Of a stretch of DNA of 64,000 nt, positions 5,654 to 12,447 are shown in pieces (the first letter of the stretch is position 1; each line of letters begins with the position of its first letter). Both the position numbers and the translations under genes were made by a program. The stretch comes from Brachybacterium equifaecis. GTDB taxonomy: Bacteria > Actinomycetota > Actinomycetes > Actinomycetales > Dermabacteraceae. The stretch covers positions 620,001 through 684,000 of the forward strand of contig NZ_JAKNCJ010000001.1 in NCBI RefSeq assembly GCF_023509525.1, in the 5' to 3' direction. Below the pieces are notes generated by a model, which saw only the letters and a program-made list of their open reading frames with translations, did no database searches and had not been told where the DNA came from.

Positions 5654-6232
5654 ATGCCCAAGATCATCGGCGCCTCCCTGGGCGAGCACCGGGAGCGCAC
5701 TCGCGAGAAGGTGTTCGCCGCCCTCGGAGCGCTCATGGAGCACGACGCCTTCGAGGACATCACCTTCTCGCGCATCGCCGAGGCCGCGGGGGTGGGGCGC
5801 ACCGCGATGTACAACCACTTCCCCGACAAGGCGACGCTGCTGGTGGAGTACACCATGCACGAGACCAGCGACTATCTCGAGCGCCTGCGCGCCGGGATCG
5901 ACGGCGCCGATTCGCCCGTGCAGGCGATCGAGCTGTACGTGCGCACCCAGCTGGACCTCACCACGTCCTTCCACATGCCCAGCACCCGCGGCCGCGTGAC
6001 CCTCGACCCGCAGATCGCCGCGAAGATGCGCGAGCACGTGGTGATGATCGAGGACGTCCTGCGCACGATCCTCGAGGCCGGCGTCGCCTCGGGCGATTTC
6101 GCCGCCGATCTCGACGTCGACTCCACGGTGCGCATCCTCAACGCCGCCCTCATCGGGCGCGCGCTCCCGCCGGGCACCGATCCGCTCGCGCTGGTCCGCT
6201 TCGTGCAGCGGGGGCTCGGCGCGCGGGTCTGA
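5654..6232 (+). CDS. TetR/AcrR-family transcriptional regulator
   Basis: 192 residues. The N-terminal helix-turn-helix (about 12-58) has the TetR signature ITFSRIAEAAGVGRTAMYNH followed by FPDKATLL. The remaining all-helical ligand/dimer domain is not diagnostic. It lies 104 bp after the glycosylase-GNAT gene on the same strand with its own AAGAAT hexamer 6 nt before ATG, so it is probably transcribed alone. A GTG two codons upstream is an alternative start. Its target is unknown. Confidence 0.88.
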   Translation: MPKIIGASLGEHRERTREKVFAALGALMEHDAFEDITFSRIAEAAGVGRTAMYNHFPDKATLLVEYTMHETSDYLERLRAGIDGADSPVQAIELYVRTQLDLTTSFHMPSTRGRVTLDPQIAAKMREHVVMIEDVLRTILEAGVASGDFAADLDVDSTVRILNAALIGRALPPGTDPLALVRFVQRGLGARV

Positions 6233-6315: not shown

Positions 6316-8928
6316 TCAGCGCCGGGTGCGCTTCTCCCGGCCGGCCCGCCCGCCGCGACCACCGCGCCCGCGCGGGGCGGCGCCCTCGTCATCGCCCTCG
6401 TCGTCGGCCCAGTCCTCGAGCAGCGCGCCCGCAGGCGCCTCCTCGGCGCGACGGGAGAACAGCGGCGCCGACTCCTCGCCGAGGTCGTCCTCGAGGTCGG
6501 GCTCCGGGGCGGTCAGCGCGTAGAGCCAGCAGCCGCCCGCGACGAGCAGGGCGAGGATCGCCGCCCCCCACCGCAGCGCCGGCTCGGTGCCGTCGAGCAT
6601 CGCGTTGACCATCGGGGAGGCCGTCAGCACGCTGATCAGCGCGCCCAGCACGGCGGCGAGCGCGATCATCGTGCCGAGGGCCCCGCGCAGGGCGTCGCCG
6701 AGGGCCGCGGCGCCGAGCGCTCCGGAGTGGGCCCAGGAGCCGCGGCCGCCGTAGCGCCCGGACTCGATCACCTCGAGGGCGGCGCGCGAGGAGCCCGCGA
6801 AGACCGTGCTGCCCACGGCGAGCACGGCGCCTGCGCCCAGCAGCGTCACCACGAACGCCGGGAGGGCCGACGGGCCCAGACCGAAGCCCGCGACGATCGG
6901 CATGAGCGCGGCGGTCGCGACGGGCGCGAGGGCTGCGCGCTTCGCGGCGGCGGGGAGGTCGGAGAAGTCGACGGCGCTCTCCCCTGCGAGCAGAGCGGCG
7001 CGGGTCTCGACCACGGAGGCCGCCCCGAGCCGGCGCTGCGCGGTGAGCATGCCGGCTGCGACGAGGGCCGTCGCGACGAGGGCGAGCGCGATGCCGCCGG
7101 CGACCGGGAGGGCCGACGGGGTCAGCGCGTGCAGGGCGCGGTCCTCCCAGACGGTCCCGGCTCGACCGGCTGCCTGCATCGCGCCGATCATCGGCAGGAT
7201 CAGGGGCAGCGCCGTCATCGCGAGGGCGAGCTGGAGGCTGACGGCCGTCTCCGCGGCGCCGCCGCGACCGGCCGCGCGCACAGCCGCGTCGGTGCCGGGG
7301 CGGTCGGCGAGGAGCTCGGAGGTGTGGAACGCGGCGCTCGCGGCGATCACGAGCAGGGCGCCGAGGCCCGCGAACGCGAGCAGCGCGAGCATCAGCTCGG
7401 GGACTCCCCTGCCGATCACGGAGAGCACGAGCAGCACCGCGCTCAGCGCGCCAAGACCGCCCGCGGCCGCGAGCAGCGCCGAGCCTCCGGACGCAGCGAT
7501 GCCGAGCACCCCGCCCGTGCGGTGGGTGCGGGCGGCGCGCAGGGCCGAGCCTCCCGCCGGGTTCAGCACGCGGGCGGCGAGGAGCTGCGCGGCGAGAGCG
7601 GCGAGCGCGCCGAGCGCGAGGGCGGCGGCCACCACGGCGTTCGGGTGGATGCCATAGAGCGTGAGCAGGTCGAGGAACGCGCTCGCGTAGCGGGACTCGT
7701 CGGTCACGTCGATCCACTGCGTCATGTCCCCGATGGACTGCAGGATCTGCGGCTCGAGGTTCGCGCGGGGAACGGGATCGCTGCCGCCGGTGAGCGCCGG
7801 GTCGGTGAAGCTGTCCATGCCGACGGCCGCGAAACGCAGCGACTGGTAGGCAGAGGGCAGCCACAGGGAGATCGCCGCGGCGGCGGTGCCGACGGCCAGC
7901 AGGGCCGGGACCAGCGCGCCGATGCGCAGGGAGGTGCGCTCGCGGTCCGCGCGCCCGATCGGCGGGATCACGGCGACGAGCAGGGCGATGAGGATCGCGA
8001 CGACCAGCACGAACAGGGGCACGAGGATGCCCTCGGCGCCGAAGACGGGCACGCCGACCCGGATCGAGGCAGCGACGAGGGTCGCGGTGAGCGCCACGAG
8101 AGCGGCGGCGCGGGCGGGGCCGCGGCGCAGGAGCTGGGCGAGCTGCAGGTGCGCGGCGCCGGGGTTCTCCTCACCTTCGAGCGGCAGTCCCTTCTCGTCG
8201 GCCCCGGCGAGCAGCGCGGAGCTGGTGCCGACGGAGCCCGCGAGCCCGGCCACCGCATGCAGCACCAGCGCGAACAGGGCCGCACCGGCGGCGTAGGCGA
8301 TCATCGGCGAGGCGGCGGCCTCGCGCATGAAGTACACGGCGGGCACGATCGGCAGCGCGGCGATGCCGAAGGCGCTGGCGACGAACAGTCCGCCGAAGCG
8401 GGGCAGGGAGCGGGCGCGGTCGGCCGGGGCGATGGCGAGGCCGCCCAGGAGCATGCTGCCGGCGCGCCAGGCCGCCAGGGCGCCTGCGACCAGGCCGACC
8501 AGCACGAACCCGACGCGCAGGATCCGCACGTCGGTCGAGCCGGGCACGAGGGCGAGCAGCAGCATCATCGGCACGCCGACGCTCGCGGCGATCGTGGTCG
8601 CGGTGGTGACGAGCCCGCCGAGCCGGGAGCCGAGGTGGGCGTCGAGCTCCGCATCGCCCGTGTCGGTGACCTCGGCCAGCTCGGCCTCATCCTCGTCCTC
8701 GATCTCGTCGAGCTCCGCCGCGTGGGAGCCGTCGGCCCCGTCGGCCCCCTTCGCGCGGCGGCGCGCGCCTCCCGTCTCCGCGCGGCGGCGCGCGAGCGCG
8801 GCGCCGCGCCGAGCGAGGCGCGGGGGGATCAGCACGCCGAGAGCGATCGCCGCGAGGGCTGCCACCCCCAGCACGAGGAGCAGGACGGCGATGTCATCGC
8901 CGAGGGCGAACTGCGTGATGAGGTCCAC
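6316..8928 (-). CDS. H+-pyrophosphatase-like membrane protein lacking catalytic residues
   Basis: 870 residues, about 15-16 hydrophobic helices, with acidic (70-95) and Arg/Gly-rich (830-870) cytosolic extensions. Several blocks align by eye to membrane-bound pyrophosphatase HppA. IESGRYGGRGSWAH (721-734) mirrors the HppA motif IESGxxGGKGSxAHKAAVVGD. VRAAGRGGAAETAVSLQLAL (550-569) mirrors DAAGNTTAAIGKGFAIG. EGEENPGAAHLQLAQ (251-265) mirrors [21 protein letters not shown]. In each block the Asp and Lys residues that bind Mg-pyrophosphate in real HppA are replaced, so it cannot be an ordinary pump. The start is GTG at 8928 with AGGAG upstream. It follows the thioredoxin/NHL gene on the same strand. 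The function is unknown. Confidence 0.7.
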   Translation of the reverse strand: MDLITQFALGDDIAVLLLVLGVAALAAIALGVLIPPRLARRGAALARRRAETGGARRRAKGADGADGSHAAELDEIEDEDEAELAEVTDTGDAELDAHLGSRLGGLVTTATTIAASVGVPMMLLLALVPGSTDVRILRVGFVLVGLVAGALAAWRAGSMLLGGLAIAPADRARSLPRFGGLFVASAFGIAALPIVPAVYFMREAAASPMIAYAAGAALFALVLHAVAGLAGSVGTSSALLAGADEKGLPLEGEENPGAAHLQLAQLLRRGPARAAALVALTATLVAASIRVGVPVFGAEGILVPLFVLVVAILIALLVAVIPPIGRADRERTSLRIGALVPALLAVGTAAAAISLWLPSAYQSLRFAAVGMDSFTDPALTGGSDPVPRANLEPQILQSIGDMTQWIDVTDESRYASAFLDLLTLYGIHPNAVVAAALALGALAALAAQLLAARVLNPAGGSALRAARTHRTGGVLGIAASGGSALLAAAGGLGALSAVLLVLSVIGRGVPELMLALLAFAGLGALLVIAASAAFHTSELLADRPGTDAAVRAAGRGGAAETAVSLQLALAMTALPLILPMIGAMQAAGRAGTVWEDRALHALTPSALPVAGGIALALVATALVAAGMLTAQRRLGAASVVETRAALLAGESAVDFSDLPAAAKRAALAPVATAALMPIVAGFGLGPSALPAFVVTLLGAGAVLAVGSTVFAGSSRAALEVIESGRYGGRGSWAHSGALGAAALGDALRGALGTMIALAAVLGALISVLTASPMVNAMLDGTEPALRWGAAILALLVAGGCWLYALTAPEPDLEDDLGEESAPLFSRRAEEAPAGALLEDWADDEGDDEGAAPRGRGGRGGRAGREKRTRR

Positions 8929-9013
8929 GGGGGTCTCCTGGGGCGTCCGTCAGCAGGGCCGACGGTCTTCGGGGGTCAGGGCCGGGGCGGCGCCGCGAGT
9001 CGGCGCCGGGGCG

Positions 9014-10978
9014 TCAGCCGAGCAGCGAGAGGTCCAGCGTCGTGCTCGCACCGGGGGCGATGCGGATCGGCACGCCCCAGTCCTGCTGGTGCATGTGGCA
9101 GGCGGGGAACTCGACGGAGGGATCCGCATCGCACGAGGCGGCGCGCGCGCTGACGTGCAGCACGCCCTCGCGGTAAGCGGGATCCAGCGTAATCGCCCGC
9201 TCGAGGTCCGTGCGCATGCCGCCGCCGTCCGTGAGCATCGCGCTCGGCGTGGTGGAGATCGTGACCTGCGTGGACGGGCCGAGGGTGTCGTCGAGCTTGT
9301 GGCCCGGCGGCGGGGTGAAGACGACGCGCACGGTGAGCGGGCCTTCGCCGACGTCGGTCACGGGCCGGGAGGTGCGCTGCTGGCCCTCGTCGATGATGCG
9401 CTCGGCGGCCTTCGCCACCGGCACCCAGGTGACGCGGTGCGCCCCGGACTCCACGACGATCAGCTGGCCGATGCCGTCCACCGGAACGCCGACGATCACG
9501 TCGGAGGGCTCGGCGAGATCCGTGGCGACGGTGACGACACTCGCGGGGGCGTCGCCGCTCTCGCCGCCGGTGGCGTCGATGATGCGGATCGCGCCGTTGT
9601 AGGTGTCGGCGACGGCGATGCGGCCGTCGGGCAGGCCGGTCACGCCGAGGGGGTGCTGGAGGCGCGCGCGGTCGGCCGGGCCGTCCACGTGGCCGAAGTC
9701 GAACAGGCCTTCGCCCACGAGCGTGCGCACCGTGAATGTGCGGGGGTCGAGGATGCGGATCGCTGAGGTCTCGGAGTCGGCGATCGCGAGGGTTCCGTCG
9801 GCCAGCTCCGCGACGCCCGAGGGCTGCGCCCACCAGGAGCGCACGAGGGCGCCGTCGACGAGGCCCTCATTCGTGGTGCCGGCGAGCACGGCGAGCTCGC
9901 GGCTGCGCGGCTCGAAGGACCACATCTGGTGGATGCCGGCCATCGCGATCACGGCGCGGCCCAGCACGTGCGACCAGGCGAGATCCCAGGGCGTCGACAT
10001 CGCGTACGTCAGCGGATCGGCGCCGCCGGTCGCGAGCGGCTGGCCCTGCATCCACTGCGCGCCGGTGCCGGCGACGGTGCCGACGACGGTCGGCGTGCGG
10101 CCGCGCAGGAGGCGGGAGTGGCCGAGCTCGACGGAGCGCAGCAGGTGGTTGGCGCTGTCGGCGACGAGCAGGTCGTAGCCGACGGCGTCGGCGACCTCTT
10201 CGGGCAGCACGAGCACGCCGTTGGGCTCGGCGAAGGAGGCCTGGTCGGCCTCGCCGTCGGCCGCGCCGCGGGCGCCGGAGCCGATGATCTCGGAGACGCT
10301 CACGCCGTCGGGCTCGAAGATCACGAGGCGGTGCTGGCCGGCGTCGGAGACGACGTAGCGGCCATCCGGCAGCGCCTGGATCTTCGAGGGGTAGCGGAGG
10401 GTCTGGGGGACGCGCTCGGCGAGGACCGTCGGCGCGGGGCCGCGGCGCAGGGAGCCGTCGGCCTCGGCTTCTGCGATCAGTCGGCCGATGAGCGCGTCGA
10501 GGTTCGCGGCGTGGCCCTCCCCGGAGAGGTTCGCGGCGATGCGGCCGTGAGTGTCGAGCACCATCAGGGTGGGCCAGGCGCGGGCGCCGTACTCGGTCCA
10601 CGTGGTGAGCTCGGGATCATCGAGCACGGGGTGGGTGACCTCGTAGCGCTCGATGTTCGCGCGCAGGGCGTCGGCGTCCTTCTCGAACTCGAACTTCGGG
10701 GAGTGGACGCCGATGACGACGAGCTCCTGCTCGTACTTCTCCTCGAGCGGGCGCAGCTCGTCGAGGACGTGCAGGCAGTTCACGCAGCAGAAGGTCCAGA
10801 AGTCCAGCAGCACGATCTTGCCGCGCAGATCGGGGAGGTCCAGATCGACCCCGCCCGTGTTCAGCCAGCTGCGGCCGCGCAGCGGGCTCGCATGCACGCG
10901 GACGTCCAGCGTGCCCTCCCGCCCGGTGGGCTGGTCGGGGCGAGGCTCGTGCGCGGAGGTGCTGCCGGAGTGCGTCAT
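9014..10978 (-). CDS. Thioredoxin-like / NHL-repeat protein (NHLRC2-like)
   Basis: 654 residues. The N-terminal third is a TlpA/thioredoxin-like domain with the redox pair C65-C68 in WTFCCVNCLHVLDEL, as in animal NHLRC2 and its bacterial relatives. Residues about 200-500 contain repeated NHL beta-propeller strands (YPSKIQALPDGRYVVSDAG and HPLGVTGLPDGRIAVADTY are two of them), and the last 130 residues form a beta-rich domain. No signal peptide is seen, so it is probably cytosolic. The ATG at 10978 is chosen; an upstream GTG at 11014 is possible. The palindrome GTTCAGTGAAC lies 2 nt upstream of this ATG. The role is unknown even in the family. Confidence 0.85.
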   Translation of the reverse strand: MTHSGSTSAHEPRPDQPTGREGTLDVRVHASPLRGRSWLNTGGVDLDLPDLRGKIVLLDFWTFCCVNCLHVLDELRPLEEKYEQELVVIGVHSPKFEFEKDADALRANIERYEVTHPVLDDPELTTWTEYGARAWPTLMVLDTHGRIAANLSGEGHAANLDALIGRLIAEAEADGSLRRGPAPTVLAERVPQTLRYPSKIQALPDGRYVVSDAGQHRLVIFEPDGVSVSEIIGSGARGAADGEADQASFAEPNGVLVLPEEVADAVGYDLLVADSANHLLRSVELGHSRLLRGRTPTVVGTVAGTGAQWMQGQPLATGGADPLTYAMSTPWDLAWSHVLGRAVIAMAGIHQMWSFEPRSRELAVLAGTTNEGLVDGALVRSWWAQPSGVAELADGTLAIADSETSAIRILDPRTFTVRTLVGEGLFDFGHVDGPADRARLQHPLGVTGLPDGRIAVADTYNGAIRIIDATGGESGDAPASVVTVATDLAEPSDVIVGVPVDGIGQLIVVESGAHRVTWVPVAKAAERIIDEGQQRTSRPVTDVGEGPLTVRVVFTPPPGHKLDDTLGPSTQVTISTTPSAMLTDGGGMRTDLERAITLDPAYREGVLHVSARAASCDADPSVEFPACHMHQQDWGVPIRIAPGASTTLDLSLLG

Positions 10979-11071
10979 GGGTTCAGTGAACACCGCACGC
11001 CGTGGTCGCGCCACTCATCTGCACGCACGGGCCTGGGTTCTCACATGGGCGCGCCGGGCGCGGCGGCAGAC

Positions 11072-11746
11072 TCACCAGGTCGCGATCCACTCCAGCAGGC
11101 CCTCGTCCTCCAGCGTCGCGATGCGCAGGTCGGCCTCATCGACGTCGCCGCCGTGCGGGGGCACGGCGAGCAGTCGCAGACCGGCCGCGACCGCGGCGCG
11201 GGCGCCGACTGCGGAGTCCTCGAGCGCCAGGCACTCCCCCGGCGCGACTCCGAGTTCGCGCGCGGCCTTCGCGTACATATCCGGGGCAGGCTTGCCGTTC
11301 TCGACGGTGTCGGTGGACTGCAGGTTCGCGAACAGGTCGATGATCCCGGCGCGGGTCAGCTTGTCCTGCAGCGCCTCGTGCCAGGAGTTCGAGGCGCAGG
11401 CGATCGGCACGCGCGCGGCAGCGGCGCGCACGATCGCGATCGCCCCCGGCATCGGGTGCAGCTCCTCGCCGAGGTCCGTCAGGAACTGCTCGCGCGCCGC
11501 GGCGAGCACCTCCCCGTAGTCGGCGCCTGCGGCGCGCGCGATGACCTCGGCGGCCTGCTCGAGGGTCGCGCCGATGATGGAGTCGTCCTGCTCGGGGGTG
11601 AGGGTCGCGCCGTAGCGGGCGAGCATCGTCTGCTGGGTGCCATCCCAGACGGATTCCGTGTCCAGGATCAGTCCGTCGCAGTCGAAGACGACGCCCTTCG
11701 GGGTCCAGTCGCCGAATGCGTCGAGGTAGCGATCGATGTCGCTCAT
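11072..11746 (-). CDS. HAD-superfamily hydrolase (beta-phosphoglucomutase/phosphatase type)
   Basis: 224 residues with HAD motif I VVFDCDGLILDTE (nucleophile Asp), motif II ASNSW, and motif III/IV KPAPDMYAKAA followed by LALEDSAVGARAA. The helical cap between motifs I and II places it in subfamily IA with sugar-phosphate phosphatases and phosphomutases. It overlaps the upstream HAD gene by ATGA and resembles it along its length, so the two arose by tandem duplication. The substrate is not predictable. Confidence 0.88.
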   Translation of the reverse strand: MSDIDRYLDAFGDWTPKGVVFDCDGLILDTESVWDGTQQTMLARYGATLTPEQDDSIIGATLEQAAEVIARAAGADYGEVLAAAREQFLTDLGEELHPMPGAIAIVRAAAARVPIACASNSWHEALQDKLTRAGIIDLFANLQSTDTVENGKPAPDMYAKAARELGVAPGECLALEDSAVGARAAVAAGLRLLAVPPHGGDVDEADLRIATLEDEGLLEWIATW

Positions 11747-12447
11747 GCGCGTGCCTCCCAGGTGGCGATCCAGGCCTGCAGCACCGGATCTTCGAGCGTG
11801 GTGATGGTGCGGTGCGCGCGGGGCGACTGCCCCGGCAGCGAGGGGACGGCGATGACCTGCAGTCCCGCGTCATACGCGGCGCGGGCGCCGGTTTCGGAGT
11901 CCTCGAAGGCGAGGGCGCGTGCGGGATCGACACCGAGGCGCCGGGCGGCCTCGACATAGATGTCGGGGGCGGGCTTCGGATGGGCGACGTCGTTCTCGCT
12001 CACCGAGGCGGTGAGCACGTCGGCCACACCGATCTGCGCGATCGCGGCGTCGAGCAGGTCGCGCGGGGAGTTCGAGGCGATGGCGACGGGCACCTTCGCG
12101 GCGACCGCGCGGACAGTGTCGACGGCGCCCGGCATGAGCACCGGGGCCGCGCTCTGGCGCTCGATGTGCATCTGCTTCAGCTCGTCGCCCGCGGCGTACG
12201 GATCCTGCCCGGTGATCTCCGCGAGGGACCGCACGACGGTCTCGATGGTGCGGCCGGCGAGTCCGCGCCACTGCTCATCCGTGACGACGGCGCCGCGGCG
12301 TGCGATGTAGTCCTTCTGCGTGAGGACCCATTCGGCCTCGGTGTCGATCAGCAGTCCGTCGCAGTCGAAGACGACTGCGCGCGGGGTCCACTGCGGAGGC
12401 CAGGTCGAGAGCGGGCTGATGAGCGGGTTCGGGTCCTGTGCGCGCAT
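11743..12447 (-). CDS. HAD-superfamily hydrolase, tandem paralogue
   Basis: 234 residues with motif I AVVFDCDGLLIDTE, the threonine/serine motif IASNSP, and KPAPDIYVEAARRLG followed by LAFEDSETGARAA. It has the same subfamily IA layout as the downstream gene, including the IATW near both C-termini. The ATG at 12447 has GAGGA upstream at good spacing. Divergent from the VOC gene with 54 bp between starts. Probably a sugar phosphatase; substrate unknown. Confidence 0.88.
   Translation of the reverse strand: MRAQDPNPLISPLSTWPPQWTPRAVVFDCDGLLIDTEAEWVLTQKDYIARRGAVVTDEQWRGLAGRTIETVVRSLAEITGQDPYAAGDELKQMHIERQSAAPVLMPGAVDTVRAVAAKVPVAIASNSPRDLLDAAIAQIGVADVLTASVSENDVAHPKPAPDIYVEAARRLGVDPARALAFEDSETGARAAYDAGLQVIAVPSLPGQSPRAHRTITTLEDPVLQAWIATWEARA

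Follow-up and report, generated by a model that had tools for sequence, protein, structure and literature searches.

A probable pseudoenzyme branch of the membrane pyrophosphatase fold in Dermabacteraceae

Introduction

Membrane pyrophosphatases (M-PPases) are described, in PMC10897367, as enzymes with completely conserved active-site residues, among which D6.43 and D16.39 form the Asp pair at the nucleophilic water. For K5.58, K16.38 and the gate residues, the roles used here follow PMC10897367 and PMC5150537, the latter of which presents M-PPases as homodimers. Two other systems are of interest for what follows. The iRhom pseudoproteases are, according to PMC6451368, inactive relatives of a membrane enzyme that have been kept for another role, and human NHLRC2 carries a thioredoxin-like domain followed by NHL repeats (PMC6107167). 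A search of mostly open-access papers, preprints not included, found, among the papers listed, no report of a non-catalytic M-PPase branch.

Here we analyse a window, namely a stretch of 64,000 nucleotides of Brachybacterium equifaecis (contig NZ_JAKNCJ010000001.1, positions 620,001 to 684,000), in which a gene encodes an M-PPase-like membrane protein, hereafter pHppA, as distinct from the canonical HppA. As judged from its sequence and those of its orthologues, pHppA is probably a vertically inherited pseudoenzyme branch of the M-PPase fold with a different job.

Sequence sets and numbering

The pHppA alignment contains 37 rows, that is, 43 loci minus three with broken frames (G003, G027, and G006) and three fragments (G026, G029, and G032). 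The canonical comparison consists of 20 HppA rows, two of them from viral-contig records, in which the compared sites are identical or nearly so (at least 18 of 20); L058, truncated at a contig end, was omitted, L063 was trimmed to 745 residues, and L122, L125, and L126 were left out of the analysis. L123 and L124 are full-length canonical HppAs whose active sites are intact; they lie on contigs recorded as viral, which could be host DNA. Site labels such as 5.58 or 6.43 were placed on the Brachybacterium numbering by motif and by the Vigna numbering. For the topology of pHppA we assume that of Streptomyces HppA, which we take to have 17 helices and an outside N-terminus.

Homology of pHppA to membrane pyrophosphatases

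Single-sequence searches pick up chiefly the C-terminal block of pHppA. The match to PF03030 has an E value of 3.5e-6 and 26.4 bits by hmmscan, and 29.9 bits in the genome search, around a cut-off of 29.7 bits; that to NCBIfam NF001952 has an E value of 2.8e-11, and phmmer gave zero matches among PDB sequences. Aligned as a profile to HppA with hhalign, pHppA matches over 708 columns, spanning residues 6-821, with an E value of 4.8e-33, the underlying 31-row set including L008 (G006), whose N-terminus is out of frame. Moreover, hmmsearch reaches the Thermotoga M-PPase 4av3 with an E value of 1.8e-11. The homology is thus full-length, pHppA has the 16-helix fold of M-PPases, and the resemblance to HppA lies far above chance. 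The sequence-only reading had aligned the 870-residue protein to HppA in at least three blocks; the likeness in fact spans the whole protein, the structural match is strong, and one of those blocks is the motif of the loop between helices 15 and 16 (residues 723-738). A first structure model (A1, 12 orthologues) reached a pLDDT of 48, because of which it was replaced by a second one on changed input, comprising residues 95-815, two extra orthologue pieces and two canonical HppAs from viral-contig records. Best-profile scores point to a duplication from the NF001952 type as the candidate origin of pHppA, and profile scans of viral contigs found no relatives of it.

In the genome of B. equifaecis (3.08 Mb, 23 contigs, 99.56% complete), pHppA is the sole match to PF03030, and its nearest named relatives belong to Brachybacterium, with at most 60% identity. 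The features of the locus are collected in Table 1. A sequencing or assembly error in the window gene was rejected, since the frame is open in 37 aligned orthologues. Promoter and terminator scans at the locus gave no match, a result of little weight in a high-G+C actinobacterium.

Table 1. Features of the pHppA locus, in positions of the window.
Feature	Position	Strand	Basis or remark
pHppA	6316..8928	-	870 aa, GTG start; M-PPase fold, without catalytic and ion-gate residues
AGGAGA, ribosome-binding-like site before the pHppA GTG	8934..8939	-	read from sequence
Helix 1-2 loop, Arg-rich then acidic (residues 39-98)	8635..8814	-	alignment
Helix 5, loop 5-6 and helix 6 (residues 224-279), Mg-PPi site in HppA	8092..8259	-	
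Loop 8-9 insertion (residues 357-428), predicted outside	7645..7860	-	side inferred from M-PPase topology
Loop 9-10 motif ARTxRTGG (residues 462-476), predicted cytosolic	7501..7545	-	alignment
Loop 12-13 motif WEDRALH (residues 586-603), predicted outside	7120..7173	-	alignment
Loop 15-16 motif GRYGGxGSWxHSGALG (residues 723-738), predicted cytosolic	6715..6762	-	Pfam (C-terminal block), alignment
DLED tail motif (residues 811-814), after the last helix	6487..6498	-	alignment
NHL-propeller and thioredoxin-like protein (NHLRC2-like), directly upstream of pHppA	9014..11014	-	Pfam, locus comparison
TetR-family regulator, convergent to pHppA	5654..6232	+	locus comparison; start inferred
HAD hydrolase, conserved neighbourhood	11072..11746	-	locus comparison, Pfam
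Second HAD hydrolase, tandem paralogue	11743..12447	-	locus comparison, Pfam; start inferred

Loss of catalytic and ion-gate residues

In the segment of pHppA that corresponds to the Mg-PPi site of HppA (residues 224-279), the Lys/Asp set is gone and position 6.43 is occupied by Arg. Across the 37 orthologues, D6.43 is replaced by Arg in 33, His in two and Ala in one, remaining Asp in a single row, while D16.39 has become Ser (19), Gly (8), Ala (6), or Asn (4), and both water-contacting Asp residues are missing together in 36 rows. K5.58 and D5.65 are retained in none, D16.31 is Ala, Thr or Val throughout and never Asp, and Arg takes the place of K16.38 in 32 rows, of N232 in 29, of N459 in 28, and of D6.39 in 22 (with Asp in two). 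The ion gate has been affected as well: E6.53 is Ala in 33 of 37 rows and never Glu, S6.54 is always Leu or Val, K16.50 is always Leu, Val, Ala or Ile, and neither Asp nor Asn is found at 16.46 in any row (three gaps), with D6.50 kept in 29 rows and R5.50 in 30, the window protein lacking both. pHppA has, therefore, neither the Asp pair of a functional pump (D6.43/D16.39), nor its phosphate-binding Lys residues (K5.58 and K16.38) and Mg-binding Asp/Asn, nor its ion gate (E6.53, D6.50, S6.54, D/N16.46, and K16.50). Judged on these replacements, pHppA has almost certainly lost both the known mode of Mg-PPi binding and ion pumping.

The claim that all Asp and Lys residues of these motifs are replaced holds for the catalytic set but goes too far for the rest, since the window protein keeps identity or charge at E245, D542, H734, R470, N255, and E251. 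Among the 37 orthologues, E245 and R470 are universal, D542 is kept in 33 (plus two with Glu), H734 in 33, N255 in 31, and an Asp or Glu at 251 in 34. Retained features such as R5.50, D6.50, E245, and R470 are structural or near the gate. D745 of the window protein aligns with the canonical D683, as in no other row.

Conservation shifted from the core to the loops

The inner ring of helices in HppA shows higher conservation than the outer one (3.88 vs 3.54 bits, p 4e-15), whereas in pHppA the order is reversed (2.74 vs 2.90 bits, p 0.007), conservation rising above that of the helices in loop 9-10 (p 2e-4), loop 15-16 (p 8e-6), and, weakly, loop 12-13 (p 0.04), although not in the 8-9 insertion as a whole (p 0.64), all of these p values being indicative only because alignment columns are not independent. 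Besides the start, 26 columns are invariant in the 37 rows. According to the assumed topology, loops 8-9 and 12-13 are predicted to lie outside, and loops 9-10 and 15-16, together with the tail, in the cytosol.

Loop 8-9 comprises 67-82 residues in all 37 pHppAs vs 19 in 16 of the 20 HppAs, the remaining HppAs having 35 and 48 (L063 and L064) or a single residue (two viral-contig rows). Here, at least 36 of the 37 rows share W356, P358, Y361, L364, R365, G370, R388, and D420. The long acidic and Arg/Gly cytosolic tails that had been proposed are borne out in part: an Arg/Gly C-terminal end exists and is variable, but the acidic stretch is no tail, being the loop between helices 1 and 2, which has 54-92 residues in eight of 37 orthologues and 6-15 in the rest. 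The conserved part of the C-terminal tail is DLxD, whose D811, L812, and D814 are invariant in all 37 pHppAs and unconserved in HppA.

The residues gained in the pocket are compatible with a repurposed transporter or channel, in which the acidic Mg-PPi funnel would have turned into an Arg-lined pocket that binds or conducts an anion, be it phosphate, Mg-free PPi, a nucleotide or some other acid. This agrees with the Arg gains at 6.43, 16.38, 232, 459, and 6.39, as well as with the net charge at 36 mapped functional sites, which moves from between -7 and -10 in the 20 HppAs to between -3 and +4 in the 37 pHppAs. However, a functioning transport path should show the reverse of a core that is less conserved than the outer ring; the Arg set varies, since position 6.39 is Gln in the clade of the window protein and position 232 is Gln in the window protein itself (Arg in its four nearest relatives); and the positive-inside rule alone can yield Arg at cytosolic helix ends. 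We consider a transporter rather unlikely.

Far less probable is a pHppA that has remained an enzyme, for PPi or some other substrate, by means of different residues. The preserved pocket residues, such as E245, D542 and the acidic residue at 251, along with Arg at K16.38, speak for it, yet almost every row lacks both Asp residues at the nucleophilic water, and inner-ring columns that are at least 80% charged fall from 40 in HppA to 10 in pHppA, those at least 80% acidic from 28 to four. These four all align with acidic canonical columns and, thus, catalytic Asp residues at shifted positions, which were looked for, do not exist as a newly placed set.

Distribution and co-occurrence with true HppA

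When 47 Dermabacteraceae genomes were searched with the protein, 44 matched, G044 through its true HppA, so that 43 carry a complete or partial pHppA. These are 37 of the 38 genomes from the genus of the window and, among the nine others, six (g2 with four, g3 and g4 with one each). G044, G045, and G046 lack it, and G030 counts as a genome without a match solely because its contig ends inside the NHL gene (see below).

Beyond the family, 396 genomes of the order were searched with the profile; among the matches listed, the full-length ones lay only within Dermabacteraceae, and those outside it were partial and mostly C-terminal (E 4e-4 to 2e-26). This search scored at most two candidates per genome and can overlook distant orthologues, since it missed G038 and G041, which the protein search found. 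A protein search of 297 genomes of the order yielded 28 matching genomes at E <= 1e-12. Of these, 23 belong to Dermabacteraceae, with G038, G040, and G043 recovered (g2 to g4), and the five others (G147, G154, G206, G223, and G274) match only in the C-terminal part (E 5e-14 to 8e-13). Seven outside matches, the six best of the profile search plus G223, all have intact HppA motifs. In a class sample of 394 genomes, only the window's genome and G019 match at E <= 1e-24; PF03030 matches 313 genomes of that sample, with best E values <1e-100 except in G000, G430, and G548. Among the genomes sampled, pHppA is seen only in Dermabacteraceae, although orthologues more distant than those of g2 to g4 may escape these searches.

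Full-length HppA (>600 bits) occurs in 19 of the 47 family genomes (18 of the window's genus and G044), and 17 of the 43 pHppA-bearing genomes carry it as well. One of the 18, L064 (G017), is full-length and divergent, with 34% identity to the Brachybacterium HppA L054 and its active site kept, and looks acquired from elsewhere. The homodimeric state of M-PPases (PMC5150537) invites the idea that pHppA is a regulatory subunit forming a heterodimer with true HppA, and among genomes at least 90% complete that bear pHppA, 16 of 38 do have both. Nevertheless, the other 22, the window's own included, have pHppA without full-length HppA, and the two genes lie at different genome places where both occur. 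pHppA is, thus, not bound to HppA, and a heteromer as its main role was rejected on this count; we hold such a subunit to be very improbable. PF03030 matches in Dermabacteraceae genomes need not mean PPi-driven energy conservation and should be read with caution.

Purifying selection

Pairwise NG86 dN/dS values are 0.09-0.39 in the 25 closest of 435 pHppA pairs (30 sequences) and 0.09-0.18 in the 12 closest canonical HppA pairs. For the window protein against its four nearest relatives, pS is 0.40-0.42 and pN 0.27-0.28, a higher dN/dS that is poorly measured because these relatives are far. The pHppA branch is, thus, kept under selection, as seen in close pairs. That pHppA is a decaying gene without function is hardly credible: it evolves faster than its neighbour (43-60% vs 71-78% full-length identity to the window proteins within the genus, for pHppA and the NHL protein, respectively), its frame is broken in G003, G027, and G006, and it is cleanly absent from G045 and G046, but the frame is open in 37 of 43 loci at identities down to 32-37% between genera, the low dN/dS and the invariant columns speak against decay, and the break in G027 (85% complete) is likely a sequencing error since the NHL gene is broken there too. 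In the near-complete genome G003, pHppA is split across two frames (G003:C1:1121221-1123619), for which error and real loss both fit.

The NHL-thioredoxin gene and its neighbourhood

The protein encoded directly upstream combines a thioredoxin-like domain (Thioredoxin_8, residues 65-159, E 6.2e-11) with NHL repeats behind it (E 1.1e-17), in the NHLRC2-like order, and a CVNC motif can be read from its sequence. Its gene is found in all 47 family genomes (as a fragment in G030), adjoins pHppA on the same strand in all 43 pHppA genomes by coordinates, and precedes it in each of the 22 loci compared with the window genes. The HAD genes lie before the NHL gene in all of these loci but the short L040, the pair not being separable in L108 and L111, where both queries match one gene. 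The two HAD_2 hydrolases of the window (11072-12447, minus strand) look like mutual paralogues, and HAD genes are a recurrent feature of this locus throughout the family. A convergent TetR gene, followed by dcd, is present in Brachybacterium loci with enough flank; a convergent TetR is also found in G042, and no TetR match was obtained at the g2 and g4 pHppA loci.

With pHppA starts set by the conserved N-terminus (L117 not placed), the NHL-pHppA gap is 85 bases in the window, 24-150 in 13 other Brachybacterium loci, and 101 in L116. Among six loci of other genera, five of g2 and g4 show a 1-4 base overlap (four loci) or a 4-base gap, and G042 has a gap of 59. The NHL-thioredoxin gene also occurs without pHppA in G044, G045, and G046 and, hence, its protein does not need pHppA. 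In the small genomes of genus g6 (G045:C9 and G046:C1; L128 and L129), the NHL gene is followed by TetR, inverted relative to Brachybacterium, with pHppA missing; the NHL-gene tree is compatible with these genomes having lost pHppA or never having had it. The constant adjacency and the start/stop overlaps argue for a shared task and suggest that both genes likely form one operon, though the NHL protein manages without pHppA.

Proposed role of pHppA

The sequence-only reading of a non-pumping pseudoenzyme on an M-PPase fold is supported by the loss of residues, the strong fold match and selection. As for the new job, the conservation pattern and the gene pairing favour a scaffold or receptor over a gate. 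We propose that pHppA would be a membrane platform or receptor instead of a pump, in which conserved outer-face positions, in the 8-9 insertion and WEDRALH, may sense or bind something in the envelope or beyond it, while the conserved cytosolic loops (RTGG and GRYGG.GSW.HS) and the DLxD tail would dock a partner in the cytosol, for which the product of the upstream NHL-thioredoxin gene is the most plausible candidate. Such a platform suits the data better than a pump or pore because selection acts on both faces and the core is relaxed. We infer the partner, the docking sites and the direction of signalling, the docking sites from conservation, and the mechanism as a whole, combining outer-face sensing with cytosolic docking, is offered tentatively, as plausible but somewhat short of probable. 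Against a platform, the partly conserved Arg residues of the former Mg-PPi site would be equally compatible with a pocket for a ligand. A more specific version of the receptor, in which the enlarged outer loop reads an extracellular or envelope cue, the Mg-PPi cavity, its charge inverted, serves as an Arg pocket that binds an anionic ligand free of metal, and the closing motion formerly coupled to pumping controls the cytosolic NHL-thioredoxin partner, is distinctly unlikely as it stands. If the receptor reading were true, pHppA would, according to the literature searched, be the first case in which the fold of this primary ion pump is conserved in a lineage without catalysis.

Comparison with known systems

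The upstream protein shares the domain order of human NHLRC2, although the accessible portion of the NHLRC2 source mentions no membrane partner of the M-PPase fold (PMC6107167). With respect to HppA (PF03030, actinobacterial type NF001952), the 37 pHppA rows have lost the catalytic, PPi-binding and ion-gate residues, loop 8-9 is several times longer than in most HppAs, the DLxD tail is new, and conservation has moved from the core to the loops. The lineage indicates that the M-PPase scaffold has uses apart from pumping, because the fold is kept under selection while catalytic and gate residues have been dropped, and it provides natural data on which M-PPase residues serve structure and which serve catalysis. 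The likeness to the iRhoms, as these are described in PMC6451368, is that of catalytically inactive relatives of membrane enzymes, and an analogy only. To our knowledge, the iRhom and M-PPase folds are unrelated and share no ancestry. By fold and descent, pHppA belongs with the M-PPases, whereas by function it appears to fail their defining features.
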